From an uncultured Ruminiclostridium sp. (GTDB taxonomy: Bacteria > Bacillota > Clostridia > Oscillospirales > Ruminococcaceae): DNA of 64,000 nucleotides. The first letter of the stretch is position 1; each line of letters starts with the position of its first letter. The position numbers and the translations under genes were made by a program. Location: assembly GCA_947629925.1 (NCBI GenBank), contig CANRFO010000004.1:1-64000 (forward strand), read 5' to 3'. A model generated the notes under the pieces. The model did no database searches, was not told where the DNA came from, and was given only the letters and a program-made list of their open reading frames with translations. This document shows positions 1 to 17,480 of this stretch, piece after piece.

Positions 1-93
1 TTTCTTTCTCAACTTTCAGTCAGCTTTTTTATTTACTGCCTTTTGGCTTTTTTGTTGAGTTTTGCTCTTATCTAAATTCATAAACGCAAAAAG

Positions 94-130
94 GCACAGC
101 TATTCCGTAAAAAATTACGGTCAACTGTGC
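94..130 (-). terminator. Terminator-like hairpin after the aldolase gene
   Basis: A two-part stem is visible: GCACAG (94-99) pairs with CTGTGC (125-130), and CCGTAA (105-110) pairs with TTACGG (115-120), with a small internal loop between them. Read on the minus strand, the hairpin is followed by five U residues (complement of 88-92). It lies about 110 bases past the stop codon of the aldolase gene, so it is probably that gene's intrinsic terminator. The rest of 1-238 shows nothing I can assign. Confidence 0.6.
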
Positions 131-238
131 GATTTTAACGAATACGATTTACAAATCCCATGATGAGGTGTACCTTATTTCTTTAATATTTTACGGTGAT
201 TATATCATATTTTAACGAGAAAGTCAATTCCCCTATTA

Positions 239-1216: not shown

Positions 1217-1269
1217 TTCATTTTCTCCTATTTTTCTTTAATATATTAAATCAATTATAAACTCTTTGT

Positions 1270-1298
1270 ATTATATCACAATGAAATTATTTTGTCAA
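1270..1298 (-). promoter_or_regulatory. Sigma-A promoter of the aldolase gene
   Basis: On the minus strand a consensus TTGACA (complement of 1293-1298) is separated by exactly 17 bp from a consensus TATAAT (complement of 1270-1275), with an extended -10 TGA just upstream. Transcription would start near 1263, giving a leader of about 47 bases. Confidence 0.85.
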
Positions 1299-1317
1299 TC
1301 AAACGGGAAAAATGTAA

Positions 1318-1344
1318 ACAGCCGCAGATAATTTCTGCGGCTGT
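1318..1344 (-). terminator. Terminator hairpin after the aquaporin gene
   Basis: An 11-bp perfect stem (1318-1328 with 1334-1344) closes a 5-base loop, 20 bases past the aquaporin stop codon. On the minus strand it is followed by a U-rich but interrupted stretch (TTTACATTTTT). It separates the aquaporin gene from the aldolase promoter. Confidence 0.7.
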
Positions 1345-1364
1345 TCTGTTAAAATGCTAATATC

Positions 1365-2039
1365 TTATTTGTCGCTCTTGGGTTTGGAAGTGAGGAACTT
1401 GTAAACAAGCGCCGCCAGTACGCCGCCGATAAGGGGAGCAACGATGAATACCCACACGTTTGCAAGAGCATCGCCGCCTACAAAGAGATCAGGTCCGAAG
1501 CTGCGGGCGGGATTTACGGAAGTGCCTGTGAAGTAAATGCCGAGGATATGCACAAGCGTCAGTGAAAGACCGATAACAAGACCTGCAACCGCGCTGTTTT
1601 CAACCTTTGAGGTAACGCCGAGAATTGCAATTACGAAAACAAACGTGAGTATTACTTCAATAAGGATCGAAAGAAGAATGTCGCCGTTATAAAGTCCGTT
1701 AGTGCCAAGTCTGCTTTCCTTGCCCACAAATGCCATAAGAGCAGCTGCGCCTACGATAGCACCAAGGAACTGAGCGATAACGTAGCCGATAAAATCCTTG
1801 ACGGTCATTTTTCCGCTTACAAGCATAGCTATGGAAACAGCAGGATTGATGTGGCAGCCTGAGATGTTGCCGATAGAGTATGCCATTGCTACGATAACAA
1901 GACCGAACGCAAGTGCGGTCATAAGGTAAGCGGGTCCATTCTCAACAGAGCAGCCTGTAACAACAGCGGTGCCGCAGGCGAAAAATACCAGTACGAATGT
2001 GCCGATAAATTCCGCAACATATTTTTTCAGAGCATCCAT
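1365..2039 (-). CDS. Aquaporin (MIP family water channel)
   Basis: A 224-residue integral membrane channel with six hydrophobic segments and the two half-helix signatures of the MIP family: NPA at residues 65-67 and NPAR at 176-179. The region before the second motif (LVHIL...GTSVNPAR) keeps the His, Thr and Arg expected of the narrow, water-selective filter of AqpZ-type channels rather than the wider glycerol-facilitator filter. It probably conducts water, possibly small solutes. The start has GGAGG nine bases upstream. It is a single-gene unit with its own promoter, a structured leader of about 108 bases and a terminator, so regulation at the leader is possible. Nothing nearby suggests glycerol use. 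Confidence 0.88.
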   Translation of the reverse strand: MDALKKYVAEFIGTFVLVFFACGTAVVTGCSVENGPAYLMTALAFGLVIVAMAYSIGNISGCHINPAVSIAMLVSGKMTVKDFIGYVIAQFLGAIVGAAALMAFVGKESRLGTNGLYNGDILLSILIEVILTFVFVIAILGVTSKVENSAVAGLVIGLSLTLVHILGIYFTGTSVNPARSFGPDLFVGGDALANVWVFIVAPLIGGVLAALVYKFLTSKPKSDK

Positions 2040-2147
2040 AAAGAAAAACCTCCAGATTTAAAAATAACGGCGGACATTGCGCCTGCCGCAGGTTTAAAGG
2101 AACGTAAGCTTTAGGCTTTAAAAGCCATACAGCTTGGCGTTATTCCT
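2040..2147 (-). promoter_or_regulatory. Structured 5' leader of the aquaporin mRNA
   Basis: Between the predicted transcription start (about 2147) and the ATG, two hairpins can be drawn. The first spans 2101-2141 and combines AACG/CGTT, AAGCT/AGCTT and GGCTT/AAGCC helices on one axis. The second lies at 2068-2088 (CGGC with GCCG, or alternatively GGCG with CGCC). The ribosome-binding site GGAGG (complement of 2049-2053) follows. I do not recognise a known riboswitch class. Confidence 0.4.
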
Positions 2148-2153
2148 ATTAAC

Positions 2154-2182
2154 AGTTTACCATATTTTTACTCAGTTGTCAA
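2154..2182 (-). promoter_or_regulatory. Promoter of the aquaporin gene
   Basis: Consensus TTGACA (complement of 2177-2182), a 17-bp spacer, then TAAACT (complement of 2154-2159) preceded by an extended -10 TGG. The strong -35 and TGn element compensate for the weak -10. Confidence 0.75.
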
Positions 2183-2270
2183 TATTTACAGCTATTTTAA
2201 AATAATGATGAAAAACTCAGTTTTTGATTTCTTTATTCTCTTAGATAATTAAAACTGAAATAATTTAATT

Positions 2271-2813
2271 TTATTCACCATACTCTGCTATATAAGGGAG
2301 ATTTCTGTAATATTCTCCGCAGTCCAATCCATATCCAACAGCAAAAAAATCAGGTATTGTAAATAAAACTTCATCAGCTCTGAAGTCAACTGTTCTTCTG
2401 TCTGGCTTGTCAAGAAGCGCAATGACCTTCAACGAGAGCGGCGATCTTTTTTTAAGAAGATCAACAATATCATTAAGAGTTCGTCCTGTATCCACTATAT
2501 CCTCTGCTATGATAACATGATACTTGCTTATATCCTGTTTCAAATCGAGATTTATTCTGACATTACCTGATGACTGAGTGCCATTATAATAACTTTCTGC
2601 TGCCATAAATCCAATTTCACACGGTATCGTTATATTTTTAAGCAGATCGGCCGCAAATATAAAAGAACCTTTCAATATACTTACTATCAGAAGAGGCTTA
2701 TCTCTGTACTCAATACTTATTTTCTCCCCTGCGGATTTAACGGCTTTATGTATTTCTTCTTCAGATATGACAATTCGTTTAATTTTTCTTTGATATTCCT
2801 CAGTATTTTGCAT
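2271..2813 (-). CDS. hpt: Hypoxanthine phosphoribosyltransferase
   Basis: A 180-residue type I phosphoribosyltransferase that salvages hypoxanthine (and usually guanine) to IMP/GMP using PRPP in the cytoplasm. The PRPP loop is clear at residues 100-112 (VIIAEDIVDTGRT, with the two acidic residues and the TGRT turn). The pyrophosphate-binding SILKGSF is near residue 45 and a C-terminal purine-pocket region (IPDFFAVGYGLDC) is present. Length fits the family. The start at 2813 is chosen because an AAGGGG site precedes it and because the predicted transcription start lies near 2854, which excludes an upstream in-frame ATG at 2870. It is transcribed alone. In many Firmicutes this gene sits beside tilS and ftsH; here it does not. 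Confidence 0.92.
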   Translation of the reverse strand: MQNTEEYQRKIKRIVISEEEIHKAVKSAGEKISIEYRDKPLLIVSILKGSFIFAADLLKNITIPCEIGFMAAESYYNGTQSSGNVRINLDLKQDISKYHVIIAEDIVDTGRTLNDIVDLLKKRSPLSLKVIALLDKPDRRTVDFRADEVLFTIPDFFAVGYGLDCGEYYRNLPYIAEYGE

Positions 2814-2860
2814 GATCAGCTTCCCCTTGCAAATTTTTAACAGTTTCAAATATATGTTAT

Positions 2861-2889
2861 ATTTTATCATTTTTTTATTTTTCCGTCAA
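2861..2889 (-). promoter_or_regulatory. Promoter of hpt
   Basis: TTGACG (complement of 2884-2889), a 17-bp spacer and TAAAAT (complement of 2861-2866) with an extended -10 TGA. Transcription would start near 2854, about 40 bases before the hpt ATG at 2813. Confidence 0.75.
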
Positions 2890-3151
2890 GAAATGGTAAA
2901 AAGAAGTGCTGATTTTTTGTAACCGCGTTAATGCAGAGTTTAAAAGGATTTGCAAAATCGTTTTCGTATTATTTTATTTTTCGAAATATTTTTTTAAATT
3001 CTTAATTGAAATTGTAACCTGTCTTTTTTCATTTTGCTGATTTTTATTGGTTTTCCACGAAAAGAAGGGTTAAAAATTCTACTATTTGCACTGAAACTCA
3101 ATATAAAATTTGACAAAAAATGAGAAAGTGTTTTAAAAGTCCGCAAATCTA

Positions 3152-3180
3152 TTGACAGAGCGGTTTTTTGGCGTTATAAT
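3152..3180 (+). promoter_or_regulatory. Consensus sigma-A promoter of the secreted-protein gene
   Basis: An exact TTGACA (3152-3157) and exact TATAAT (3175-3180) are separated by 17 bp. Transcription would begin near 3187, giving an 86-base leader. Such a fully consensus promoter suggests strong constitutive expression unless a repressor acts. Confidence 0.85.
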
Positions 3181-3272
3181 CAAGGAGCCGAAAGGTTAGA
3201 AAAAATTCCCAATTCTGCTTTACAAAATACTTCAACGGATTTTTCCGTAACAGAAAGGTATGGTGAAAAAAA

Positions 3273-6200
3273 ATGAAAAAGCTGACAAAAATCACATCTG
3301 CTATCGTTACAGCCGCTTTGGCGGTCACTTCAACGGCTCCGTTTCCTGTTCAGTTCTTAAATGCACAGATTTACGCATATGCTTCAGAGTCAGACAATTA
3401 TTTCTATGAACAGTTGACAGATGAGGCAAAACCTTTCTATGACGGTATGGAGAATATGTATCGGCAAGGCATTATGAAAACAGGCAACGGCGACTATGAC
3501 CTTGTGAGCAACGGCCATATCACATCTGAAAAAGTTGCTGAATACGGCGGAGGCGGACCATACTTACTTTCTTTGTTTGGCGCAGCAAGAGACGCTTTTT
3601 ACGCCGATCATGCCGACATATTCTATGTTGACTTTTCTTACCTTTCTGTAAGAGTTACTAAAGACATTGACAACATTTATCATGTTTATATAGGTTCAGG
3701 ACGCAGCGACAATTACTATACCGAAGGCTTCACAAACGAAGGACAAGTCGATTCGGCAATATCGTATTATGAAGCAGTAGTAAACAATTTAGCTGCACAG
3801 GCTGACTCCGTTACTGCAGAAGAAGGAGAAAGTCTTGACGCTGAAAAAGTAAAGTTTGTTCATGATTACATAATAGATCATACTTCATATCGTCTTGAAA
3901 ATGTGTGCAGGCGTGAAAATATAGGTCTTATAAGAACCGCTTACGGCGCTCTTGTAAACGGTGAAAGCGTTTGTGAAGGATATTCAAGAGCTTTGAAGGC
4001 AGTACTTGACAGGTTGGGTATTCCCTGTGTTCTTGTTTACGGCATATATATGCATAACGAAAATACGCCCGAACTTCATATGTGGTGTGAAGTAAGGATA
4101 GACGGTATATGGTACGCTGTCGATGCAACTATGGACGATCCGTATGTAAAAAACAGCACAAGTACCCTTGACGGATTTGAAAATCAAGACTATCTGCTTG
4201 TCGGGCAGTCTACCATGAGCAGACAGCATTTTCCAAGCGGTATAATGTCCGAGGCTGAATATGAATTTTCTTATCCTCCCCTCAGCATTGACGGCTTCAA
4301 TGTTGAAACGATAAGCAACTATAACGGTCTTACCGTAAAATTCAAATCTGACGGTGAACTTGAAGACGAAGAAGCAGGCGTATTCTATGTAAGCTACAAC
4401 GGAATGGGCGTGGCAAAAGCAGCTGAACAAGGAAAATACCTGATCGCCAAAATGGATATCTATTATGAAAACACGGACGAATGGATAATGGGAGAATGGG
4501 GATATCTCCTTCCCGACGTTTATTCCGCAATAGAGGATTTTGACACGGAGGTAAGGCTTCCACTCCCTCATGTACAGTATGTACAGTTTGCAATTACGGA
4601 TATCGCCCCCGGAGATTATAAATCTGACCCTAACCGTACAAGATATTTAGGCGACCCTATGATGTTTGAAGCTTATACGGGAACGATTTACAATCCTTCA
4701 GGCAATTACCTGAAGCCTCCTTATGTGCAAAGCATCACGCCTGCTATGAACGGAAGGATAACAATAGGAAGATCCTATCATGTTGTGGCGGTTTATGACG
4801 ATCCGCTTCAGCTTGAAACCGAAGATTCCGTTCCCGATATAGTTATGTATGCTGAAAGTGCGCTTCCTAACACTCAGACCACCGCTATGGAGTATGCAAG
4901 ATATGGCAACTTTGTATGGGACGGAGACAGAACAATAGAATTTGATTTTACTCCCAGCGATATGTGGATGGACGATATGACCTTGTACACATTCTCTGTA
5001 AAAGGTCTGGTCGGAAGCAGAAGCCTTAAAGCTCCCAATGACATTTGCTATGGTGCAAGCTTCAATATGTGTCCTTGCGCTTACAGATCACAGGGATATG
5101 ACTGGGCTTTGTTCGGAAAACCGACTCTTATGGATAACATTGATTTGGATACAAGCAGCTGGATCACTGACAACGGTGAAAAAATTGCCGACGAACTGAA
5201 AGACAGAATGGTTTTGGTAGCTTCTTCCCCTACTCATAATCAGACGGATGAAATGATTGAAATGATCGAGGGGCAAACAGGTGAAAATGTTCTTTCAGAA
5301 GAAACGTTCAACATTCATCTTACTGTCTGCAAGGCTCAAGTAGTAAAAACAGGAGATAAGGTACGAGTTCAGCTCGGCTTCCCCGCAGGATACGGTCCAG
5401 ATGACGAAGGCGTAACATTTAAGGCATATCACTTCTTTAAAGACGACGCAGGAAATATAACAGGCGTGGAAGAAATACCATGCATAATAACAAAATACGG
5501 TCTTATCATTCTTTGCGACTCCTTCAGTCCATACGCCGTAGTTGCCGTTAAGGACGATGGACAGAAAACGGAAAATACCGCTAAAAATGTTCTTGTAACT
5601 GTTTCTGAAGGTGGAAGCATTTCAGGCGACAAAATTTTCACACTTGACAGCGGCGAAAGCGAAACTCTTACTGTAAACGCCAAAGAAGGTTTTGAAATAG
5701 ACAGTATAACGGTTGCGGGAAAGAATGTAGAGATAACAAATGAAGAAACTATGGAAATAACCATAAGCAACGAAGAGATCGCTGATCTTAACGGTATTGT
5801 GAACGTCGCTTTTGCGGCAAAATCTGTCCATGAAAAAGAAAAAGAAAGAGAAGAAACAGTGGCTCAGGTCGAAGTTTCTCCCGCAAAAATAGAGTTAGAA
5901 GAAAGTATAAGCGTAAAAGCGGGCTATTCAATCAAGCTTGAGCCTAAGATAACTAACAGCAAACTGTCTGATATAAACAGCTATCAATGGTATAAAGATG
6001 ATTTATTGCTGACAGGAGAAAATTCTCCTTCCCTTTCCATTAAAAAAGCAACACTTGATGATGTAGGTGTATATAAAATAGAAGTGACTACTTCATATGG
6101 TGCGTCAAGCATAACGTCTGACAAATCGATAAACGTCATTGTTGAAGAAAACGGAATCGAACATTCACCAAATATCGGAAATAACTGGCAGGTTCCTTCT

Positions 6201-6518
6201 ACCAGTAACGACAATGAAAACAACAATGACAATATAAACAATGAAGAACAGCCTGCTAATACCGAACCATCATCAAGCACGGACAATTCTGATATTGAAG
6301 CTGTTGTAACAGAAGCTGAAACTACTCAGGCAGAAAATACGGCAGTACAGACAGAAAGCACGGAAAATACAGTTGAAATTGCAGATACTGAAATTCCCGA
6401 CAACAATTCGGGTGAAAGAAATCCTATTACAGGTAGCGCGGGAATAATTGCTGAAGTTACAGGGCTTGCCGTTATAGGAATAGGGATAACTTTATTCATC
6501 AAGAAAAAACGCGGGTAA
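3273..6518 (+). CDS. Secreted transglutaminase-like protein with Ig-like domain and NPITG wall-sorting-like C-terminus
   Basis: A 1081-residue extracellular protein. Residues 1-38 form a signal peptide (basic start, hydrophobic Ala/Val/Thr core). A transglutaminase-like core follows with a visible Cys-His-Asp triad: C234 (SVCEGYS), H269 (HMWCEV) and D284 (AVDATMDD). Such domains act as proteases, transglutaminases or inactive binding modules. Around residues 770-850 is a bacterial-repeat type beta domain, and around 875-960 an Ig-like domain (YQWYKDD ... DDVGVYKIEV). An Asn/Thr/Glu-rich linker then leads to NPITG (residues 1050-1054), a hydrophobic stretch and a KKKRG tail, which resembles a sortase signal and predicts attachment to the cell wall. 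No sortase gene is in the window. The natural substrate is unknown. The only other gene in the same direction nearby is the hydrolase at 6593. Confidence 0.8.
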   Translation: MKKLTKITSAIVTAALAVTSTAPFPVQFLNAQIYAYASESDNYFYEQLTDEAKPFYDGMENMYRQGIMKTGNGDYDLVSNGHITSEKVAEYGGGGPYLLSLFGAARDAFYADHADIFYVDFSYLSVRVTKDIDNIYHVYIGSGRSDNYYTEGFTNEGQVDSAISYYEAVVNNLAAQADSVTAEEGESLDAEKVKFVHDYIIDHTSYRLENVCRRENIGLIRTAYGALVNGESVCEGYSRALKAVLDRLGIPCVLVYGIYMHNENTPELHMWCEVRIDGIWYAVDATMDDPYVKNSTSTLDGFENQDYLLVGQSTMSRQHFPSGIMSEAEYEFSYPPLSIDGFNVETISNYNGLTVKFKSDGELEDEEAGVFYVSYNGMGVAKAAEQGKYLIAKMDIYYENTDEWIMGEWGYLLPDVYSAIEDFDTEVRLPLPHVQYVQFAITDIAPGDYKSDPNRTRYLGDPMMFEAYTGTIYNPSGNYLKPPYVQSITPAMNGRITIGRSYHVVAVYDDPLQLETEDSVPDIVMYAESALPNTQTTAMEYARYGNFVWDGDRTIEFDFTPSDMWMDDMTLYTFSVKGLVGSRSLKAPNDICYGASFNMCPCAYRSQGYDWALFGKPTLMDNIDLDTSSWITDNGEKIADELKDRMVLVASSPTHNQTDEMIEMIEGQTGENVLSEETFNIHLTVCKAQVVKTGDKVRVQLGFPAGYGPDDEGVTFKAYHFFKDDAGNITGVEEIPCIITKYGLIILCDSFSPYAVVAVKDDGQKTENTAKNVLVTVSEGGSISGDKIFTLDSGESETLTVNAKEGFEIDSITVAGKNVEITNEETMEITISNEEIADLNGIVNVAFAAKSVHEKEKEREETVAQVEVSPAKIELEESISVKAGYSIKLEPKITNSKLSDINSYQWYKDDLLLTGENSPSLSIKKATLDDVGVYKIEVTTSYGASSITSDKSINVIVEENGIEHSPNIGNNWQVPSTSNDNENNNDNINNEEQPANTEPSSSTDNSDIEAVVTEAETTQAENTAVQTESTENTVEIADTEIPDNNSGERNPITGSAGIIAEVTGLAVIGIGITLFIKKKRG

Positions 6519-6592
6519 AAATGCATTTAACCAAGATGCATAAACAAGACAAATGAAAGAGAAATCAGAGTTTAACAAGGATAAAGCTATAT

Positions 6593-7357
6593 ATGTCAAA
6601 CTGGTTTACCATTGAAAAAATTGACTCTCAGACATTTGCAATCAGTGAATACAAACATTGGGAGGAAACGCACTGTTATCTGTTATGCGGTCAAGAAAGA
6701 GCGATTTTGATTGATACAGGCTTAGGTGTTTCCAATATCAAAAAAGTCGTGGATACTTTGACGGAATTACCCGTTATGGCAGTTACTACCCATGTTCACT
6801 GGGACCACATAGGCGGGCATCGGTGTTTTGATAATATAGCTGTGCATGAATCTGAAAAAGATTGGCTATCCGTTAAATTTCCGATACCGCTGCAAATTGT
6901 CAAGAATAATTTAACAAAATTTCCTTGCGAATTTCCAACAGAATTTGATATTGACAACTATAAAATCTTTAAAGGAAAACCGCAAAGAGTTTTTAGTGAC
7001 GGCGATCTGCTTGATCTGGGAAATCGAAAGATTCAGGTCGTTCACACACCAGGACACTCTCCAGGACACTGCTGTTTCTATGAATCGGATAAAGAGTATC
7101 TGTTTTCAGGGGATTTGATTTACAAAGGTTGCCTTTACGCGTTTTACCCGACTACCGACCCGCAGCTTTTTTATAATTCAATAAAACGTGTGCAGAAATA
7201 TAAAATCACAAGAATTCTACCAGGTCATCATCAGTTGGATATTCCTGTTTCCTTAATAGACGAAATTGAAGACGGATTCGCGCAGATAGAGAGAAGCGGC
7301 AAACTTAAACAAGGAAATGGGTTATTTGAATTTAAAGATTTTCAGATTCAGATATAA
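6593..7357 (+). CDS. Metallo-beta-lactamase-fold hydrolase
   Basis: A 254-residue protein with the complete metal-binding set of the MBL superfamily: HVHWDH (H67, H69, D71, H72), TPGHSPGH near residue 150, the bridging Asp in FSGDLIY near 170 and LPGHH near 213. It is a two-metal hydrolase of the glyoxalase II / RNase Z-like fold. There is no signal peptide, so it should be cytoplasmic. The substrate (thioester, lactone, phosphodiester) cannot be decided from sequence. It starts 75 bases after the secreted-protein gene with no promoter I can see between them, so the two may be co-transcribed. An AAGGA element lies about 12 bases before the ATG. A bidirectional terminator follows. Confidence 0.8.
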   Translation: MSNWFTIEKIDSQTFAISEYKHWEETHCYLLCGQERAILIDTGLGVSNIKKVVDTLTELPVMAVTTHVHWDHIGGHRCFDNIAVHESEKDWLSVKFPIPLQIVKNNLTKFPCEFPTEFDIDNYKIFKGKPQRVFSDGDLLDLGNRKIQVVHTPGHSPGHCCFYESDKEYLFSGDLIYKGCLYAFYPTTDPQLFYNSIKRVQKYKITRILPGHHQLDIPVSLIDEIEDGFAQIERSGKLKQGNGLFEFKDFQIQI

Positions 7358-7407
7358 ATTGTATATTTTTTCTGTCGATGAATTTTAAATTTACTCTCTT
7401 ATATGTA

Positions 7408-7433
7408 AAAAGCAGACTTTACAGTCTGCTTTT
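7408..7433. terminator. Bidirectional terminator between the MBL hydrolase and spo0A
   Basis: Perfect 11-bp stem AAAAGCAGACT (7408-7418) with AGTCTGCTTTT (7423-7433) and a 4-base loop. T-runs follow on the plus strand and, in complement, on the minus strand. It separates two convergent genes. Confidence 0.85.
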
Positions 7434-7456
7434 TCTTTTATGCAAAAAACTTTTTT

Positions 7457-8254
7457 TCAGCTTTTCAAAGCGACCTCGCCAGTTTTGATCTGAAGCCTGA
7501 GCTTGTCCGAAATAAGAGCGATAAATTCGGAGTTGGTAGGCTTGCCCTTGGTGTTGCGTATTGTATAGCCGAAGTAGGAGTTAAGAACGTCTACATCTCC
7601 TCTGTCCCATGCAAGCTCTATCGCGTGCCTTATCGCGCGCTCAACTCTTGAGGAGGTCGTCCTGAATTCAGCCGCAACAGTAGGATAAAGCTGTTTCGTT
7701 ATGCTGTTTATCATCTCGTTGTTTTCAACACACAGCATTATGGCGTATCTTAAAAAGTGATAGCCTTTGATGTGAGCAGGTATGCCTATCTGGTGTATTA
7801 TGTCGGTTACTATACATTCAAGGTCCTGCTGACGAGACGGTTCTTTTATAAATCTGTCAAAGTCTATGTCTGATGTTTTCCTGTCCTGTGTGTCGGACTC
7901 CGCTATCCTTCTCATAAGCTCCGAGGGTTCAAAAGGCTTTACCATAAATGCTGAAGCTCCGAGATATAAGGCTTCTTCCTCCAGCACGGGCATAGGGTGA
8001 TCGGCGGTTATGATGACCGTCGGAAGCTCGCCAAGCTTTTTCAGCTCCCTTATCAAGCCAATAGAATCAAGACCGGGCATTTTAGCCTCGATGATGAGTA
8101 TGTCGGGCATGGAATATTCCTTCACATACTGAAGGAGTGTAAGACCGTTGGGTTTTCTTGTAACTGCAAAGGCGCCTGCTGTTTTCAGCATATTAGCCCA
8201 TGCTATCCCCTGATCGGGGATATCGTTTCCGATCAGAACTTTAGAGCTGCTCAT
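7457..8254 (-). CDS. spo0A: Spo0A-like response regulator with Glu at the phospho-acceptor position
   Basis: A 265-residue protein with a receiver domain (1-120) and a C-terminal Spo0A DNA-binding domain (about 150-262). The latter is very well conserved: HQIGIPAHIKGYHFLR, the SRVERAIRHAIELAW recognition region and FGYTIRNTKGKPTNSEF. Spo0A is the master regulator of sporulation entry and is normally activated by phosphorylation of Asp56. Here position 56 is Glu (codon GAG at 8087-8089), and the first residue of the acidic pocket (position 10) is Asn, with D11 kept. The conserved Thr (IITA) and Lys (MVKPFE) are present. This suggests a regulator uncoupled from the phosphorelay, possibly constitutively active. 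The start is set by AAAGGAG ten bases upstream; an earlier in-frame Met lies inside the promoter. spoIVB, its usual neighbour, is absent. Confidence 0.9.
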   Translation of the reverse strand: MSSSKVLIGNDIPDQGIAWANMLKTAGAFAVTRKPNGLTLLQYVKEYSMPDILIIEAKMPGLDSIGLIRELKKLGELPTVIITADHPMPVLEEEALYLGASAFMVKPFEPSELMRRIAESDTQDRKTSDIDFDRFIKEPSRQQDLECIVTDIIHQIGIPAHIKGYHFLRYAIMLCVENNEMINSITKQLYPTVAAEFRTTSSRVERAIRHAIELAWDRGDVDVLNSYFGYTIRNTKGKPTNSEFIALISDKLRLQIKTGEVALKS

Positions 8255-8304
8255 AGATGTCTCTCCTTTTATGGGAATAATGTACGATAATATGTCGCAA
8301 TATG

Positions 8305-8333
8305 ATGATAGCATAATATATTGAAAAATACAA
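8305..8333 (-). promoter_or_regulatory. Promoter of spo0A
   Basis: TTGTAT (complement of 8328-8333), a 17-bp spacer and TATCAT (complement of 8305-8310) with an extended -10 TGC. It predicts a start near 8298 and a leader of about 44 bases. It looks like a sigma-A promoter; I see no clear sigma-H element. Confidence 0.6.
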
Positions 8334-8640
8334 GAGTTTTTTTGAAAAAATACAAAAAATAATGAAAGTGGATTTTAAGAGGCAAAGAAAGGAGTCGGAA
8401 GAAAAAGCAGCAACGATAAAAATGTATAATAAGCTTATAAAACGGCAAAACAGTCACAAAAACAAAGAAGAAAGCAACAGTCTGTCGAAATATATCGCAA
8501 TAAGGAGAAAAACGCCTGACCACTGCAATTCAAGCAGAAATCGGCGATTTTTTCGATTTATTTTTGCTTTGTAATACAATTGCATACTATTTTAAATTTT
8601 TTCGCATTTTCGGGGGATTTTTTTAAAAATAAAGTCGTTC

Positions 8641-8678
8641 TATTGATATAGAGATAATTTATTGATATCGAGATAAAT
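8641..8678. repeat. Two tandem copies of a 19-bp A+T-rich repeat
   Basis: Positions 8641-8659 and 8660-8678 are direct repeats that match at 17 of 19 positions (core TATTGATATNGAGATAA). They lie between spo0A and tRNA-Pro, far from any promoter seen. Function unknown; a protein-binding site is possible. Confidence 0.6.
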
Positions 8679-8793
8679 TTTAGATATTATACTTTAAAAT
8701 TTTCTAAATACATAAAAATAAACACCCCTACAAATTTGGAGCGTATTGAAACCGTCAGCTGATGCGTTATTGTTACCAAATAGATTACATAAA

Positions 8794-8822
8794 AATGCAC
8801 TCCTATATTAAAGGAGTGCATT
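8794..8822 (-). terminator. Terminator of tRNA-Pro
   Basis: Perfect 11-bp stem AATGCACTCCT (8794-8804) with AGGAGTGCATT (8812-8822) and a 7-base loop, 17 bases past the tRNA 3' end. On the minus strand it ends in a short U-run. Confidence 0.8.
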
Positions 8823-8838
8823 AAAGCCATCCAGCGTC

Positions 8839-8914
8839 TGGTCGGGGTGACCGGGCTCGAACCGACGACATCCAGTTCCCAAAACTGGCGCGCTACCAAC
8901 TGCGCTACACCCCG
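8839..8914 (-). tRNA. tRNA-Pro (anticodon UGG)
   Basis: The minus strand folds into a full 76-base cloverleaf. The acceptor stem is CGGGGTG/CACCCCG with discriminator A and an encoded CCA end. The D arm is GCGC...GCGC, the anticodon stem CCAGT/ACTGG with loop TTTGGGA (anticodon UGG, G37) and the T arm CCGGT...TTCGAGC. It reads CCN proline codons. It is transcribed alone from a consensus promoter, divergent from nifJ. Confidence 0.95.
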
Positions 8915-8965
8915 AAATTATTCATAAAACATAACACAAACAATAAGTAATTTTCCGACTTTTGT

Positions 8966-8994
8966 ATTATACACCGCTGATTCGATGATGTCAA
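8966..8994 (-). promoter_or_regulatory. Promoter of tRNA-Pro
   Basis: Exact TTGACA (complement of 8989-8994) and exact TATAAT (complement of 8966-8971) with a 17-bp spacer, about 45 bases upstream of the mature tRNA 5' end. Confidence 0.85.
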
Positions 8995-9042
8995 GAGTTT
9001 TTTTAAAAACATTACAAAATTATAAAATGTGCAAATCAAGTG

Positions 9043-9071
9043 TTTACAAATAAAGCAAAATGTGATATAAT
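9043..9071 (+). promoter_or_regulatory. Promoter of nifJ
   Basis: TTTACA (9043-9048), a 17-bp spacer and exact TATAAT (9066-9071) with an extended -10 TGA. Transcription would begin near 9078, only a few bases before the first helix of the structured leader. Confidence 0.85.
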
Positions 9072-9078
9072 TTTTAAG

Positions 9079-9170
9079 ATAACACAAGCATGGACTTTAA
9101 TAAAGGATCCTATAAAAGTCCGCAAGAAATAGGCTGCGTTGCTTTTGGCAGCCGAGAAAAGCTTGTGTCA
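9079..9170 (+). promoter_or_regulatory. Structured three-helix 5' leader of the nifJ mRNA
   Basis: Three perfect helices enclose one another in a three-way junction. P1 is ACACAAGC (9082-9089) with GCTTGTGT (9161-9168). P2 is GGACTTT (9092-9098) with AAAGTCC (9115-9121). P3 is GGCTGC (9132-9137) with GCAGCC (9148-9153). Joining strands are purine-rich (GCAAGAAATA and GAGAAAA). P1 starts about four bases from the predicted RNA 5' end and closes five bases before the ribosome-binding site at 9174. It has the architecture of an aptamer or other cis-regulatory RNA, but does not carry TPP, purine or other riboswitch signatures I know. Confidence 0.55.
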
Positions 9171-9191
9171 AAAAGAAGGAGGAATATTCCA

Positions 9192-12100
9192 ATGGCAAGA
9201 CAAAAGCTGACGATGGATGGTAATACCGCTGCCGGTCACGTTTCGTATGCGTTTACCGAAGTTGCTGCGATCTACCCCATCACCCCCTCGTCCGTAATGG
9301 CCGAAGTCACCGACTCATGGGCTACTGCGGGCAGGAAAAATATGTTCGGCACAGAAGTAAAGATCGTTGAAATGCAGTCTGAAGCTGGCGCCGCAGGTGC
9401 AGTTCACGGTTCGCTTACCGCAGGCGCGCTCACTACTACATACACTGCATCACAGGGCCTGCTGCTGATGATCCCGAATATGTACAAAATAGCAGGTGAG
9501 CTGCTCCCCAGCGTTATTCACGTTTCTGCGCGTGCGCTGGCTACTCATGCGCTTTCAATTTTCGGCGATCACAGCGATATTTACGCCTGCCGTCAGACAG
9601 GTTACGCAATGCTCTGCTCCACTAACCCTCAGGAGGTTATGGATTTGGGCGCTGTTGCTCACCTTTCCACTATAAAGGGCAGAGTTCCTTTCCTGCATTT
9701 CTTTGACGGTTTCAGAACCTCTCACGAGATCCAGAAGATCGAAGTATGGGATTATGATACTCTTAAAGGAATGGTTGACGAGGATGCACTTGCTGAATTC
9801 CGCAGCCGTGCATTAAATCCTGAGCATCCTACTCTTCGCGGTACCGCTCAGAACCCTGACATCTTCTTCCAGGCAAAGGAAGCGTCAAACAACTATTATA
9901 ATGCTCTTCCCTCGATCGTTACCGAATACATGGACAAGGTAAACAAGGAAATCGGCACTGACTACAAGCTGTTCAACTACTACGGCGCTCCCGACGCTGA
10001 ACAGGTTATCGTTGCAATGGGCTCCGTTTGCGACACCATTGAAGAAACTATCGATTATCTGTTGGCTCAGGGCAAGAAGGTCGGTCTTGTAAAGGTAAGA
10101 CTTTACCGTCCTTTCTGTGTAGACGCTTTCGTAGACGCAATTCCTTCCACTGTAAAGAAAATCTCTGTTCTTGACAGAACAAAGGAACCCGGCGCTCTTG
10201 GTGAACCTTTGTATCTTGACGTTGTTGCTGCTCTCAAGAGAGCGGGCAAGTTTACCGACGTTCCCGTATTCAGCGGACGTTATGGTTTGGGTTCAAAGGA
10301 CTGCAACCCTGCTCAGATCATTGCCGTTTACAACAATGACAGCAAGCCCCAGTTCACTATCGGTATCGAGGACGATGTTACCAATCTGTCCCTGCCTATT
10401 ACCGAAAATCCCAACACAACTCCTGAAGGCACTACCTGCTGTAAGTTCTGGGGTCTTGGTTCTGACGGTACTGTCGGCGCTAACAAGAACTCTATTAAGA
10501 TCATAGGCGACCATACTGATATGTATGCGCAAGCTTATTTCGCTTATGACTCAAAGAAGTCAGGCGGCGTTACCATTTCTCACCTGCGTTTCGGTAAAAA
10601 GCCTATTAAGTCAACTTATTTCGTAAACAAGGCTAACTTTGTTGCCTGCCACAACCCCAGCTATATTGACAAGTACAATATGGTTCAGGACGTTATCCCC
10701 AGCGGCAGCTTCCTGCTGAACTGCCAGTGGAGCGTTGACGAGCTGGACGAAAAGCTCCCTGCTCCCGTAAAGGCATATATCGCCAAGAATAACATCAATT
10801 TCTACATCATCAATGCTATCAAGGTAGCAAAGGAAATTGGTCTGGGCAACAAGACAAACACTGTTCTTCAGTCTGCATTCTTCTCGATCGCCAACATTAT
10901 CCCGGGCGATGAGGCAATCGACTATATGAAGAAAGCTGCTTACAAATCATTTGCCAAGAAAGGCGAAGATATTGTAAATATGAACTATGCCGCTATCGAA
11001 AGAGGCGCAGGCGAAGTTATCAAGGTCGATGTTCCCGCTGAATGGGCTAACTGCGAAGGCGGTCTTCCTGTTCACGTTGCTGAAAGTGACAGAAAAGAGC
11101 TTGCTGACTTCATCAACAATATCCAGATTCCCTGCAACGCTCAGAGAGGCGACGAGCTCCCCGTTTCTGCATTCACTTCAATGCCCGATGGCACATTTCC
11201 TCAGGGCTCCGCAGCATTTGAAAAACGCGGTATTGCAGTAGACGTTCCCGAATGGCTCCCTGAAAACTGCATTCAGTGCAACCAGTGTTCTGTTGTTTGT
11301 CCTCACGCTGTTATCCGTCCCGTTATCATGAGCGAAGATGAAGCTGCTAAGGCTCCTGCTTCAACCAAGGTCAAGGACGCTACCGGTATGCCCGGCAACA
11401 AGTTCACAATGGCAATTTCCGTTCTGGACTGCACAGGCTGTGGCGCTTGTGTAAATACCTGCCCTGCAAAGGTAAAGGCTCTTGCTATGAAGCCTCTGGA
11501 TTCTCAGCTTGACCAGCAGGAAGCATTTGATTATGCTCACAAGTTCCAGTCCAAGCCCGAAGTTCTTGAGAAGTTCAAGGAAAGCACTGTTAAGGGCAGT
11601 CAGTTCAAGCAGCCCCTGCTTGAGTTCTCAGGCGCATGCGCAGGCTGCGGCGAAACTCCTTATGCTAAGCTGGTAACTCAGCTCTTCGGCGACAGAATGT
11701 ATATTGCCAATGCAACAGGCTGCTCCTCTATCTGGGGCGGTTCCGCACCTTCAACTCCTTACACTGTAAATGCTGAGGGCAAGGGTCCTGCTTGGGGCAA
11801 CTCCCTGTTTGAGGATAACGCTGAGTTCGGTTTCGGTATGTTCTTGGCTCAGGATACTTTGAGAGCTCGCGCTCAGGCTCATCTGAAGGCTCTTGACGAA
11901 AAGGCAGAAAACGCTGATGTAAAGGCAAAAATAGCCAAGTATTTTGAAACTGCTAATGACGGCGCTGCAAATGCCGCTGCCACCAAGGAACTGGTTGCTG
12001 CTCTTGAAGCTTGCAGTTGTGACAACGAGGACAAGAAGGAAGTTCTCAAGCTGAAGGATTACCTGTCCAAGAAATCCAACTGGATATTCGGCGGCGACGG

Positions 12101-12734
12101 CTGGGCATACGACATCGGTTACGGCGGTGTTGACCATGTTCTGGCAAGTGGCAAGAACGTAAACGTAATGGTATTCGATACCGAAGTTTACTCCAACACC
12201 GGCGGCCAGGCTTCCAAGGCAACTCCTATCGGCGCTATTGCTCAGTTTGCAGCAGGCGGCAAGGAGATCAAGAACAAAGATCTTGCGGGTATCGCAATGA
12301 AGTACGGTTATGTTTATGTTGCACAGGTTGCTCTGGGTGCTGACAAGAACCAGTGCCTGAAAGCAATTATGGAAGCAGAAGCATATGACGGTCCTTCCCT
12401 GATTATCTGCTACGCTCCCTGCATCAACCATGGTATCAAGGGCGGTCTTGCTATCGCTCAGCAGGTTGAAAAGGAAGCAGTTGAAGCAGGATACTGGAAC
12501 CTGTTCCGCTTTAATCCTGCTCTTGCAGAAGAAGGAAAGAATCCGTTCACTCTTGACTGCAAGGCTCCCACAGGCGACTACAGGGCATTTATGATGAGAG
12601 AAGTTCGTTACAACTCTCTTGCTCGTCAGAATCCTGAAAAGGCGGCTGTACTGTTCGACAAGGCAGTTGAAAACTCCAAGAAGAGATATGATGATCTGGT
12701 AGGTCTGGTAGATTACTATAAGCCTGCTGAATAA
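9192..12734 (+). CDS. nifJ: Pyruvate:ferredoxin (flavodoxin) oxidoreductase
   Basis: A 1180-residue single-chain PFOR that oxidises pyruvate with CoA to acetyl-CoA and CO2, reducing ferredoxin, in the cytoplasm. Domains in order: N-terminal pyrimidine-binding part (AAIYPITPSS), the CoA/transketolase-like middle, a two-cluster ferredoxin domain with CIQCNQCSVVCP (about residue 693) and CTGCGACVNTCP (about 747), and the TPP-binding domain (GDGWAYDIGYGG near 968) with the additional cluster cysteines CAGCGET. Length is typical. The start at 9192 is preceded by AGAAGGAGGAA; an in-frame ATG at 9090 lies inside the leader structure and is not the start. With pduL downstream on the same strand it supplies the acetate branch of fermentation. 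A structured leader and a strong terminator frame the gene. Confidence 0.97.
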   Translation: MARQKLTMDGNTAAGHVSYAFTEVAAIYPITPSSVMAEVTDSWATAGRKNMFGTEVKIVEMQSEAGAAGAVHGSLTAGALTTTYTASQGLLLMIPNMYKIAGELLPSVIHVSARALATHALSIFGDHSDIYACRQTGYAMLCSTNPQEVMDLGAVAHLSTIKGRVPFLHFFDGFRTSHEIQKIEVWDYDTLKGMVDEDALAEFRSRALNPEHPTLRGTAQNPDIFFQAKEASNNYYNALPSIVTEYMDKVNKEIGTDYKLFNYYGAPDAEQVIVAMGSVCDTIEETIDYLLAQGKKVGLVKVRLYRPFCVDAFVDAIPSTVKKISVLDRTKEPGALGEPLYLDVVAALKRAGKFTDVPVFSGRYGLGSKDCNPAQIIAVYNNDSKPQFTIGIEDDVTNLSLPITENPNTTPEGTTCCKFWGLGSDGTVGANKNSIKIIGDHTDMYAQAYFAYDSKKSGGVTISHLRFGKKPIKSTYFVNKANFVACHNPSYIDKYNMVQDVIPSGSFLLNCQWSVDELDEKLPAPVKAYIAKNNINFYIINAIKVAKEIGLGNKTNTVLQSAFFSIANIIPGDEAIDYMKKAAYKSFAKKGEDIVNMNYAAIERGAGEVIKVDVPAEWANCEGGLPVHVAESDRKELADFINNIQIPCNAQRGDELPVSAFTSMPDGTFPQGSAAFEKRGIAVDVPEWLPENCIQCNQCSVVCPHAVIRPVIMSEDEAAKAPASTKVKDATGMPGNKFTMAISVLDCTGCGACVNTCPAKVKALAMKPLDSQLDQQEAFDYAHKFQSKPEVLEKFKESTVKGSQFKQPLLEFSGACAGCGETPYAKLVTQLFGDRMYIANATGCSSIWGGSAPSTPYTVNAEGKGPAWGNSLFEDNAEFGFGMFLAQDTLRARAQAHLKALDEKAENADVKAKIAKYFETANDGAANAAATKELVAALEACSCDNEDKKEVLKLKDYLSKKSNWIFGGDGWAYDIGYGGVDHVLASGKNVNVMVFDTEVYSNTGGQASKATPIGAIAQFAAGGKEIKNKDLAGIAMKYGYVYVAQVALGADKNQCLKAIMEAEAYDGPSLIICYAPCINHGIKGGLAIAQQVEKEAVEAGYWNLFRFNPALAEEGKNPFTLDCKAPTGDYRAFMMREVRYNSLARQNPEKAAVLFDKAVENSKKRYDDLVGLVDYYKPAE

Positions 12735-12756
12735 TCAAAGTAGCAGATAAATATTT

Positions 12757-12786
12757 AAGCGGCAGCTGTTTAAGCTGCCGCTTTTT
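12757..12786 (+). terminator. Terminator of nifJ
   Basis: A G+C-rich 8-bp stem GCGGCAGC (12759-12766) with GCTGCCGC (12774-12781), extended by AA/TT, and followed by TTTTT. It lies 22 bases past the nifJ stop. Confidence 0.92.
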
Positions 12787-12823
12787 ATAATAAATTGAGG
12801 AAACAAATGTAAATATTTAGAAT

Positions 12824-13276
12824 TTATAAGCAAAATAGATTTATAATCTTTAAGTCACATTCATCAACATACCCTATATTCTCTTTAAAATCCCATAAAC
12901 AAATTTCATCCATTTCATCATCGTCTTTTTTATCAAAAGGTGATAATTTTTCTTTAAAACAATTATAAACTGCTTGATATGCAATTTCTCCATTGGGTTT
13001 TTTAACTTTTATTAATCCTTTAAATGTCAATTCAGAAATTTTTTGATGTGTTTCTTCGAATAATTCACGCTCGGCAGCCGCTCTTGCAGTTTCTCCTGCT
13101 TCTATTCCACCAGAAGGAAGTTCCCATTGTTTTCGATATTTGTTAAATCCAAATAAAAAATTACCATTTATGTTTACAATAACATACGATCCTGTAACAT
13201 TATATTTATCTATTTCATTTTCTTCCATTATAAAGTAATCCAATAATACCCATCCACATTTATTTTTTGCAAACAT
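12824..13276 (-). CDS. Nudix hydrolase
   Basis: A 150-residue Nudix-fold pyrophosphohydrolase. The Nudix box is visible around residues 57-79 (GGIEAGE followed seven residues later by RELFEET), holding the Glu residues that bind Mg2+. The box's usual Gly after REUXEEX is His, a tolerated change. Such enzymes cleave nucleoside diphosphates linked to another moiety; the substrate is not predictable. The start at 13276 is chosen because GGGAG lies eight bases upstream; an in-frame ATG five codons earlier has no site. It begins 26 bases after mrp and probably shares its promoter. The gene is noticeably richer in A+T than its neighbours, which may mean recent acquisition. Confidence 0.85.
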   Translation of the reverse strand: MFAKNKCGWVLLDYFIMEENEIDKYNVTGSYVIVNINGNFLFGFNKYRKQWELPSGGIEAGETARAAAERELFEETHQKISELTFKGLIKVKKPNGEIAYQAVYNCFKEKLSPFDKKDDDEMDEICLWDFKENIGYVDECDLKIINLFCL

Positions 13277-13302
13277 ACAATAAACTCCCATAGTTACAAT
13301 AT

Positions 13303-14133
13303 TTAAAGCGTTTCCGTAATCTTTAAAAAAAATTCATCAAGTACAGGCTCTTCCATTTCGTCACCCTGTCCGTTATCCGCCATTGATGCAATAACGGGAT
13401 CAATAGGAAGTCTGCAAACTGATTTTATACCGAATTTCTCAGCTTCGGCATTTATATGACTTTCACCGAAAATATTGTGTTCCTTTCCGCATTGGTCGCA
13501 CTTAAAATAGCTCATATTCTCAATTATTCCGAGAATCGGGATATTCATTGTTTTTGCCATATTCACTGCCTTTTCGACCACCATAGACACAAGCTCCTGA
13601 GGGCTGGTAACTACAATAATTCCATCAACGGGAATGGACTGAAAAACGGTAAGAGGAACATCGCCCGTTCCCGGAGGCATATCTATGAACATATAATCCA
13701 CATCGCCCCAGATAACGTCCGTCCAGAACTGTTTAACTACGCCTGCAATAACGGGTCCTCTCCAGATCACGGGCGCTTTTTCATCTTCAAGAAGAAGATT
13801 TAAGGACATTACGCTTATTCCCTTTTTGGTCATTACAGGGAGTATCCCGTTTTCATCGCCGTAAGCACGGCTATGAAGTCCGAACACCTGAGGAATAGAA
13901 GGACCTGTTATATCCGCATCGAGAATGGCAGTGCGATTCCCTTTTTTATTGGAAACGGCGGCAAGCATAGATGTGACCATACTTTTTCCAACGCCGCCTT
14001 TTCCGCTTACAACGGCAATTACTTTGTTTATTTTAGACATTTTATGAGGCTGCTCGATAAAGCTGGTTTGTTCGCTCTGACGTGAGGAACAGCTTTCACC
14101 GCAGGAGGAGCAGTCATGTGTACATTCGCTCAT
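13303..14133 (-). CDS. mrp: Mrp/NBP35-family iron-sulfur cluster carrier ATPase
   Basis: A 276-residue P-loop ATPase of the Mrp/ApbC family, which binds and transfers [4Fe-4S] clusters to apo-proteins in the cytoplasm. The deviant Walker A motif SGKGGVGKS is near residue 43 and the cluster-binding CDQC pair near 213 (MSYFKCDQCG). The N-terminus adds a short Cys-rich segment (four-plus Cys in residues 4-17), as in some NBP35-like forms. The upstream promoter overlaps the rlmN stop codon. The Nudix gene follows closely. The many Fe-S enzymes here (PFOR, RlmN, MiaB, PyrK) are possible clients. Confidence 0.92.
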   Translation of the reverse strand: MSECTHDCSSCGESCSSRQSEQTSFIEQPHKMSKINKVIAVVSGKGGVGKSMVTSMLAAVSNKKGNRTAILDADITGPSIPQVFGLHSRAYGDENGILPVMTKKGISVMSLNLLLEDEKAPVIWRGPVIAGVVKQFWTDVIWGDVDYMFIDMPPGTGDVPLTVFQSIPVDGIIVVTSPQELVSMVVEKAVNMAKTMNIPILGIIENMSYFKCDQCGKEHNIFGESHINAEAEKFGIKSVCRLPIDPVIASMADNGQGDEMEEPVLDEFFLKITETL

Positions 14134-14174
14134 AATTATATTTTCCTTTCAAAGTTGAAATTGATACTTATTAT

Positions 14175-14203
14175 ATTGTAGCAAAAACTTATACAATTGT
14201 CAA
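14175..14203 (-). promoter_or_regulatory. Promoter of mrp and the Nudix gene
   Basis: Exact TTGACA (complement of 14198-14203), a 17-bp spacer and TACAAT (complement of 14175-14180) with an extended -10 TGC. The -35 element overlaps the rlmN stop codon. Confidence 0.8.
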
Positions 14204-15198
14204 TCATATTCAGCGCTCAACTGTCCGCAGGCGGCTTTTATCCCCGTTCCAAATTCCCTGCGGAATATTGCGTTTACACCACTCTTTTTTAATGTATCAA
14301 AAAATATATCCGCATTTTTTGACCGTTTAAATTCAGAATTTTCTGTTTCATTATACGGAATAAGGTTTACATAACAGTTTATTCCTTTTATCAATTCTGC
14401 AAGCTGAACAGCGTTTTCTGTGCTGTCGTTTATTCCGTCAAGCAAAATATACTCAAAAGCGATCCGCTTTCCGTAATTGCCTGAATATTCTTTTACTGCT
14501 TCTATCAGCTCTGCTACGCCATATTTTTTATTTATCGGCATAATTTGTGAACGCAGTTCATCCGTGGGTGCATGAAGGCTGACAGCTAAGTTGAATTGGC
14601 AGTTGATTTCAGAAAGCCGCTCGATTTGTGGTATAAGGCCACAAGTCGACAGCGTTATGTTTTTACCGCCAAAAGCAAGACCATAAGGGCAGGATAAAAT
14701 TTCAATAAAATCCTTTAGATTCTCAAAATTATCCAACGGCTCACCTATTCCCATTATGGAAATGTGCTTTATTTCGCAATATTGCCGCATAAATAACACT
14801 TGAGCCGTCATTTCGCCTGCTGTCAGGTTGCGCCGTCTTTTCAGTTTCCCGCTCTGGCAGAAAGAACATCCCATGGAGCAGCCGACCTGCGTGGAAACAC
14901 AAAGTCCTGCGCCGTAATCGTGTTTCATTATTACAGTTTCAACTTTGTCCCCGTCAGAAAATGACAAAAGCGCTTTTACAGTCGTACCGTCGTCCTGAAC
15001 AGTTGTTTCTATCGGTAAAGTGAAAGAAAAATTTTCTTTTATCAGCCGTTTTGTTCTATCGCTCAGCTCAGTTATATCTTCTATTTTAAGGTTTTCGCGA
15101 TAAATTGATTTAAACAGTATTTTTGCCTTGGCTTTATTTTCTCCGCGAAGCTCAAAATATTCCTCCAGAGCTTTAAAAGTCATTCCGTAAAAATCCAT
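14200..15198 (-). CDS. rlmN: 23S rRNA (adenine-2503-C2)-methyltransferase RlmN
   Basis: A 332-residue radical-SAM enzyme that methylates A2503 of 23S rRNA (and A37 of some tRNAs). The cluster motif CSMGCSFC (Cx3Cx2C) lies near residue 106, and the second catalytic cysteine region is CVSTQVGC just before it. The C-terminal methyl-carrying cysteine is in AACGQL near residue 323. MGIGEPLDN and the SLHAPTDELR region match the family. Length is slightly short of the usual 345-350 but complete. It has its own promoter. Confidence 0.93.
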   Translation of the reverse strand: MDFYGMTFKALEEYFELRGENKAKAKILFKSIYRENLKIEDITELSDRTKRLIKENFSFTLPIETTVQDDGTTVKALLSFSDGDKVETVIMKHDYGAGLCVSTQVGCSMGCSFCQSGKLKRRRNLTAGEMTAQVLFMRQYCEIKHISIMGIGEPLDNFENLKDFIEILSCPYGLAFGGKNITLSTCGLIPQIERLSEINCQFNLAVSLHAPTDELRSQIMPINKKYGVAELIEAVKEYSGNYGKRIAFEYILLDGINDSTENAVQLAELIKGINCYVNLIPYNETENSEFKRSKNADIFFDTLKKSGVNAIFRREFGTGIKAACGQLSAEYD

Positions 15199-15228
15199 GA
15201 TGATTTTCCTTTTTCTGTATTTATAACA

Positions 15229-15257
15229 ATTTTACCATATAATCAAGTGAAAATCAA
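15229..15257 (-). promoter_or_regulatory. Promoter of rlmN
   Basis: TTGATT (complement of 15252-15257), a 17-bp spacer and TAAAAT (complement of 15229-15234) with an extended -10 TGG. Confidence 0.7.
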
Positions 15258-15273
15258 CTTGGAAAAAGATTTT

Positions 15274-16584: not shown

Positions 16585-16674
16585 ATTCTGCTCCTTTAAA
16601 ATCATATTTCTGAAAGTTAGCTTTTGTATTTTTCAATAAAATATCATGTTTTTTAAAAAAGAGGTAAAAAGGAC

Positions 16675-16703
16675 TGGAAAAATAAAGAAGAATGTGATAT
16701 AAT
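16675..16703 (+). promoter_or_regulatory. Promoter of the small membrane peptide gene and pduL
   Basis: Exact TATAAT (16698-16703) with an extended -10 TGA and a weak -35 TGGAAA (16675-16680) at a 17-bp spacer. Transcription would start near 16710. Confidence 0.6.
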
Positions 16704-16734
16704 TTATTGAAGAATATAGAAAGGAGCGAATGAA

Positions 16735-16842
16735 ATGAAACAAAAGAACAGGGAAAAATGGCAGTTGGTTATAAAAATAGGCGCTTTTGTGCTGGCTGTT
16801 GTCATTGCTGTGGGTTATATTCTTTCATCGCTTCTTTACTGA
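16735..16842 (+). CDS. Small single-span membrane peptide (35 aa)
   Basis: An ATG with AAAGGAG ten bases upstream opens a 35-codon frame. It has a basic N-terminus (MKQKNREKW) and then one hydrophobic segment of about 20 residues (GAFVLAVVIAVGYILSSLL), ending in Tyr. This predicts a one-span membrane peptide with the N-terminus inside. It lies between an extended -10 promoter and pduL, 19 bases before the pduL start, so the two are very likely one transcript. I do not recognise a family, and no function is implied by sequence. Confidence 0.6.
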   Translation: MKQKNREKWQLVIKIGAFVLAVVIAVGYILSSLLY

Positions 16843-16861
16843 AAAATAAGGAGGAAAATGT

Positions 16862-17440: not shown

Positions 17441-17445
17441 AAATG

Positions 17446-17477: not shown

Positions 17478-17480
17478 TAT

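Follow-up and report, generated by a model that had tools for sequence, protein, structure and literature searches.

The Spo0A protein encoded in the window, which is the whole stretch of 64,000 nucleotides analysed here from an uncultured Ruminiclostridium sp., carries Glu at position 56 in place of the phospho-acceptor Asp, and loss of this Asp recurs across the genus and the order to which the organism belongs (the order of the comparison set being, as we take it, Oscillospirales). Both domains of the protein are under purifying selection, genes for spore formation are kept, and 0A-box-like sites stand upstream of spo0A. From these sequences we infer that this is probably an atypical Spo0A with a pseudo-receiver, active without phosphorylation of Asp56 and set by the amount of Spo0A made and by a partner or ligand. 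The start of sporulation in the window bacterium and in many of its relatives is thus probably foreign to the textbook scheme.

The gene, its second copy and its surroundings

The spo0A gene occupies 7457..8254 on the minus strand and encodes 265 amino acids, with a receiver at residues 1-120, a linker and a DNA-binding domain at about 145-258. By eye, it has a good ribosome-binding site (AAAGGAGAG) and, by eye only, a promoter-like TTGTAT-17 nt-TATCAT on its 5' side (8305..8333, minus strand). Pfam matches the two domains to Response_reg (PF00072, E 3.6e-14) and Spo0A_C (PF08769, E 8.2e-45), the NCBI equivalog TIGR02875 (spore_0_A) is reached at 234 bits against a cut-off of 200, and the nearest solved structures are Spo0A DNA-binding domains with 54-59% identity. 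In the AlphaFold2 model (mean pLDDT 83), a normal receiver of five strands and five helices stands beside a helical DNA-binding domain like that of Spo0A; with a pTM of 0.52, how the two are placed relative to each other is unsure. The window gene is the organism's true Spo0A.

The earlier note had read Glu at the acceptor place of a Spo0A homologue, and the codon at 8087..8089 (minus strand) is indeed GAG, within PDILIIEAKMP. Its description of the pocket also held, with AAC for Asn10 as the first residue of the acidic pair (8225..8227, minus strand) and with Asp11 (8222-8224), Thr83 (8006..8008, minus strand; followed by A84 and the acidic D85) and the conserved Lys106 (7937..7939, minus strand) retained, so that the canonical set of Asp56, acidic pair, Thr/Ser and Lys is incomplete at Glu56 and Asn10. 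In the model, strand 2 ends at R33 and strand 3 at E56. A Phe follows two residues after the conserved Lys (K106-P107-F108).

Two Spo0A_C genes, both of them spo0A copies, were found in the window genome (G000; 2.37 Mb, 99.75% complete), with no further Spo0A_C match. The segment 7453..8620 (minus strand) is repeated on contig C7 at 88551-89718 (L113) with 15 mismatches in 1168 bp and an identical protein. Thirteen of the mismatches fall in the furthest-upstream 209 bp and the other two close to the stop codon; the 930 bp core (8411 to 7482) is free of mismatches beside a flank that has diverged by 6%, and this mosaic suggests gene conversion or an effect of assembly. Glu56 together with Asn10 was also found in nine relatives (G001, G005, G008, G016, G029, G033, G035, L037 and L039), and G033 has the pair once more in a diverged additional copy (L146). 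A sequencing error, for which the earlier note would have had us look for Asp56 in close relatives, is excluded as the source of Glu56, since both G000 copies and the nine relatives share it. That a paralogue was taken for Spo0A has likewise next to no chance of being right, given the equivalog match, the lack of any further Spo0A_C gene in G000 and the position of spo0A in five relatives of the same clade, described below. Other Spo0A-like proteins do occur, in the genus (L143, L145-L156) and in other members of the order (L142, L144), and most of these have a receiver and a divergent Spo0A_C domain, the DNA-binding domain of L146 being itself diverged. G009 and G030 carry second Spo0A copies with no acid at position 56.

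The spo0A gene usually adjoins spoIVB. By coordinates it lies directly after spoIVB in the five relatives G035, G016, G033, G001 and G008, and by likeness it lies beside spoIVB in L042; it is apart from spoIVB in G000, G005 and G029. At the spoIVB locus of G000 (C26, L344) the neighbourhood is kept and a cysteine-synthase-like gene, identified by eye, stands where the relatives have spo0A, so spo0A of G000, found at two sites away from spoIVB, has probably moved. A tRNA-Pro gene (TGG; 8839-8914, minus strand) lies upstream of the window copy, and the spo0A genes of L033 and L034 are downstream of other tRNA genes (Thr, Tyr), which places moved spo0A genes near tRNA genes in all three, the tRNA of the window differing from the other two. 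When 11 relatives were compared by tblastx with window 1-20000 and with L113, no convincing shared neighbours of the spo0A copies were found, the matches being spo0A itself, short scattered fragments and a tRNA. Two further observations concern these records. A spoIVB-spo0A pair very like that of the genus occurs in L041, from a record titled Bacteroides sp. (JAMPHV010000058.1), a title that is probably wrong because the pair is clostridial. The window also encodes, at 3273-6518 on the plus strand, a large secreted protein of 1081 amino acids with a signal-like start, a C-terminal anchor-like end and, by eye, a transglutaminase-like stretch.

Residue 56 among the relatives

Position 56 was occupied by something other than Asp in 21/33 Spo0As of the genus, 42/127 of the rest of the order and 3/67 of the rest of the class. 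The genus proteins came from 36 genomes, three of which gave no usable Spo0A (G004, cut at a contig end; G017, no close match; G024, no match), and comprise 17 with Glu, 12 with Asp and four with a gap, the last being a three-residue alignment gap that, placed otherwise, would put a non-acidic residue at 56. Outside the genus, the order had 177 matching genomes, of which 127 were sampled, mostly the best-scoring first; 125 of their proteins have Asp (83), Glu (22), Asn (12), Ser (5), Gly (2) or Trp (1), and two more (G053, and G086 with an internal stop codon) were read separately, both as Asp. Outside the order, the class had 93 matching genomes and 68 of them were sampled, 60 of which gave 57 Asp and three Glu, seven were read separately (all Asp) and one (G307) was masked. 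The acidic-pair, SpoIVA and box tests given below use smaller sets that leave aside the separately read rows. The three Glu rows outside the order share one family code (f42), and in these proteins (L323, L324 and L326, from G331, G277 and G243) His was seen in place of the second acidic residue. Outside the genus, non-Asp rows were spread over 13 of the 22 family codes sampled. The relatives that bear names are mostly filed under Oscillospiraceae.

Other parts of the active site have fared no better. A site in which the acidic pair, D56 and K108 are kept together is seen in 1/33 Spo0As of the genus and 34/125 of the rest of the order, as compared with 54/60 in the rest of the class; the acidic pair by itself is complete in 49/125 of the rest of the order, and the conserved Lys, which all 17 Glu56 members of the genus keep, is replaced by Arg in 11 of its 12 Asp56 members. 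With sites mostly incomplete in genus and order, Glu56 belongs to a broader erosion of the phosphorylation site, of which it is the conspicuous sign, and the idea that this lineage is special through Glu56 does not stand, as the genus has Glu, Asp and gaps and the order also has Asn, Ser, Gly and Trp. A different Asp serving as acceptor would have counted against the earlier note, and none is visible in the alignment. The only conserved Asp near the pocket is D63 (31/31 rows), presumably the usual structural Asp of receivers, and the same residue is as common in groups that bear Asp56 (0.94 in the genus, 0.98 in the rest of the order and 1.00 in the rest of the class).

The genus has also gained new invariant residues, namely W19, R33, G9, G16 and A20. 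Trp19 (8198..8200, minus strand) is found in 33/33 receivers of the genus, 0/125 of the rest of the order and 0/60 of the rest of the class. Arg33 (8156..8158, minus strand), at the end of strand 2, is found in 33/33 of the genus, 3% of the rest of the order and 8% of the rest of the class, and G9 in 33/33, 6% and 0%, respectively. Lys58, two residues beyond the acceptor place (8081..8083, minus strand), is present in 88% of the genus, being absent from the four gap rows, and in 0% elsewhere. Even the four gap rows keep W19 and R33. Since the active site has been lost and invariant residues have been gained, re-use of the receiver seems likelier than its decay.

On the tree of the genus and its near relatives, Asp and Glu appear to have been interchanged about four times. 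In the careful tree, the best tree has 4 Glu changes (bootstrap 5%-95%: 4-4), with starred branches forcing only 2, and in the quick tree starred branches force at least 4, with 5 on the tree. Within the Asn10 clade, the tree suggests a reversion from Glu to Asp in L042 and L043, but only tentatively, one clade of the Glu rows not being rejected (AU p = 0.067). The mapping of Glu56 and Asn10 that the earlier note had proposed found Glu56 in relatives and found it not to be confined to one lineage. Residues 56 and 108 pair almost perfectly in the genus, as 17 E+K, 11 D+R, 1 D+K and 4 gap+R. A coupling between them was considered and rejected, with 4-5 independent pairs on the tree giving a sign test p of 0.5-1, and it is also contradicted by three E+R Spo0As in the same family (G085, G116 and G155).

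Spore genes, selection and upstream sites

The earlier note had named SpoIIE and SpoIVB among the sporulation genes to be sought. Both are present in G000 (frames of 773 and 438 amino acids, respectively), along with SpoIVA, SpoIIGA and a SASP, all SpoIIE matches lying under the curated cut-off (0/60 genomes over it), SpoIVB being counted only at E 1e-50 or better, and the SASP match being the weakest of the genus and covering profile positions 8-51 of 59. Weak SpoIVB matches, which occur in 12/14 control genomes, are probably other PDZ-domain proteins. The 17 Glu56 genomes have SpoIVA in 16, SpoIIE in 15, SpoIVB in 16, SASP in 15 and SpoIIGA in 15, the 12 Asp56 genomes of the genus have 12, 12, 11, 12 and 12 in the same order, and the four gap-at-56 genomes have each marker in all 4. 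One genome, G010 (Glu56, 98% complete), lacks all five markers and so makes up one absence in every Glu56 count; its Spo0A (L137, on contig C11 of G010) was nonetheless seen to retain Glu56, with TGTCGAA upstream of the gene, a hint that this Spo0A may serve something other than sporulation.

In the rest of the order, SpoIVA was found with 79/83 Asp56 and 39/42 non-Asp Spo0As (Fisher p 0.69), where five genomes without SpoIVA were inferred by elimination and one of these (G199) enters the count. As SpoIVA is equally frequent with Asp and with other residues, loss of the acceptor would be no sign of lost sporulation, as judged from genes rather than spores and from five markers of many, and loss of sporulation finds no support. 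Within this wider group, Ruminococcus bromii has been shown to sporulate, according to the available text of PMC5814915. Loss of the phosphorelay, which the earlier note had raised, would carry little weight as a trait of this lineage, the relay being missing from many Clostridia according to the parts consulted of a 2024 review (PMC11210211). Its check for kinases gave a positive answer, with 11 HisKA kinases in G000, three of which (L265, L267 and L270) have, by eye, no regulator gene within 1.5 kb on either side, so kinase input to Spo0A is possible. Spo0E-type phosphatases were found in 0/60 genomes, and this absence is uninformative because it holds whatever the residue at 56.

Strong purifying selection on the DNA-binding domain, which the earlier note had supposed, was borne out. 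In the window clade, the receiver had a pairwise median dN/dS of 0.11 and the binding domain one of 0.02, from 20 and 16 usable pairs of 28; these and all the following values are medians at near-saturated dS with only part of the pairs usable. Two other Glu56 sets had receiver values of 0.03 and 0.11, one of them also yielding a binding-domain value of 0.02 (2 pairs), and two Asp56 sets gave 0.05-0.09 for receivers and 0.02-0.04 for binding domains. The four gap-at-56 Spo0As gave 0.22 and 0.04, and this faster receiver, together with an upstream box in only one of the four, is as expected of relaxation.

The sequence TGTCGAA, which we take to be the 0A-box consensus, occurs in the window at 8483..8489 (plus strand), 235 nt ahead of the spo0A start codon. 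It lies at an equal distance in G005 and G029 and at -243 in G035, and the mismatches between the window and C7 copies fall outside it. The exact 7-mer was sought up to 300 nt upstream of spo0A and compared with a Markov expectation and with five control words of the same composition, which gave counts of 0-5. In the genus it was found with 11/17 Glu56 (expected 0.6), 10/12 Asp56 (expected 0.4) and 1/4 gap-at-56 genes (expected 0.1), in the rest of the order with 34/81 Asp (expected 3.2) and 16/42 non-Asp genes (expected 1.7), and in the rest of the class with 19/56 Asp (expected 1.3) and 4/4 other genes (expected 0.2), the last including the masked G307. Since the word is enriched with Asp and non-Asp alike, binding preference and autoregulation appear to be kept whatever residue stands at 56. 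Around the spoIIE start of G000, a search of 170 nt that allowed one mismatch at most gave no 0A box.

Probable control without the acceptor Asp and what it would mean

The window protein shares with the Spo0A of Bacillus subtilis and of Clostridia outside the order the receiver, the Spo0A_C domain and the upstream 0A-box-like site, but differs in Glu56, in Asn at the start of the acidic pair and in the new W19, R33 and K58, and its gene is duplicated and apart from spoIVB. With the acceptor gone, the usual phosphorylation at position 56 would be impossible, while the receiver and the Spo0A DNA-binding domain are predicted to retain their folds. Binding to 0A boxes, one of them ahead of spo0A itself, is probably retained, and, to judge from the retained genes, the protein probably still starts the sporulation programme. 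Its activity would most likely be set by the amount made, through autoregulation and here through two gene copies, and, in place of a kinase acting on Asp56, by a ligand or partner of the remodelled receiver. DNA binding that no longer depends on phosphate is the simplest account of the data, as it would cover Asn, Ser, Gly, Trp and gaps as well. Set against the earlier proposal of a permanently active or ligand-independent Spo0A, phosphorylation-independent control is thus the best reading, while permanent activity is unsupported. A wider version, in which this whole order of gut anaerobes, many times and independently, freed Spo0A from phosphotransfer while keeping sporulation, and in which the receiver of the genus became a sensor of a ligand or partner, with Trp19, Arg33 and Lys58 as its marks, is put forward only tentatively.

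Such proteins recall the atypical response regulators and pseudo-receivers that lack the Asp, as described in the accessible portions of PMC12632262 and PMC4395418, with which the window protein shares the change from D to E and that of the first acidic residue to N. The constitutive regulator ChxR, treated in the available part of PMC4395418, has Glu at the acceptor place and offers a model for phosphate-independent DNA binding, but has an OmpR/PhoB-type output. In that account, binding was not abolished when the Glu of ChxR was changed to Asp or Ala, so Glu need not be the cause of activity either there or in the window protein. Plant pseudo-response regulators, as presented in the parts seen of PMC12632262, also have Glu at the acceptor place and work without its phosphorylation; unlike the window Spo0A, they are eukaryotic clock proteins with other output domains.

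The reading under which Glu56 mimics phospho-Asp, leaving Spo0A permanently active and controlled only through spo0A expression, is unlikely. Glu is the commonest replacement (17/21 in the genus and 22/42 in the rest of the order), the residues expected to hold it (T83 and K106) are kept, and many regulators are partly activated by a change from Asp to Glu, according to the available text of PMC12632262. However, the Asn, Ser, Gly, Trp or gap found elsewhere with spore genes kept mean that mimicry, which fits G000, explains only part of the pattern, and Asp and Glu appear to have been interchanged repeatedly in the genus and its near relatives. In addition, the consulted part of PMC4395418 (2015), citing Green 1991, holds that Asp-to-Glu alone is not enough in Spo0A, and that of PMC12632262 (a 2025 review) reports for CheY that a Phe two residues after the conserved Lys biases the protein to inactive conformations, which F108 would be expected to favour here.

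Kinase-type input of some other kind may persist, given the 11 HisKA kinases, and the phosphate might be taken by another residue of Spo0A, the receivers being still under purifying selection. This altered phosphorylation is nevertheless improbable, since no new conserved Asp has appeared near the pocket, D63 is common to the Asp56 proteins, and Asp11 is kept beside Asn10 in a site whose acidic pair is incomplete in most of the rest of the order. Decay of the receiver through loss of sporulation is highly improbable as well. It would suit G010, but few markers are missing among the other 16 Glu56 genomes and G000 keeps all five, SpoIVA is retained independently of residue 56, and the receiver is under purifying selection and has new invariant residues. 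Control of Spo0A without phosphorylation of Asp56 accommodates the various replacements and the retained spore genes alike.

Among the matches listed in a search of the open-licence literature by title and start of abstract, there was no report of a natural loss of the acceptor in Spo0A. Spo0A is mentioned 0 times in the main text of PMC12632262 and twice in PMC4395418, as the changed Spo0A and its reference. A natural loss of the breadth seen here is of wider interest than one codon. According to the available text of the 2024 review (PMC11210211), endospore formation has a shared trigger in the phosphorylation of Spo0A at its conserved Asp; if that Asp is missing from around a third of the Spo0As in a gut order (42/127) and most are without an intact site (91/125) while spore genes are kept, the trigger would have been replaced at least there, and the way in which uncultured spore-formers of the gut commit to sporulation would become directly testable. 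The presence of spo0A has been used as a marker of sporulation potential (PMC11536998, in the part available), and presence alone is silent on how the circuit is controlled. The switching of atypical receivers is called a mystery in the abstract of PMC12632262, and these Spo0As would offer naturally occurring pseudo-receivers whose output is known.
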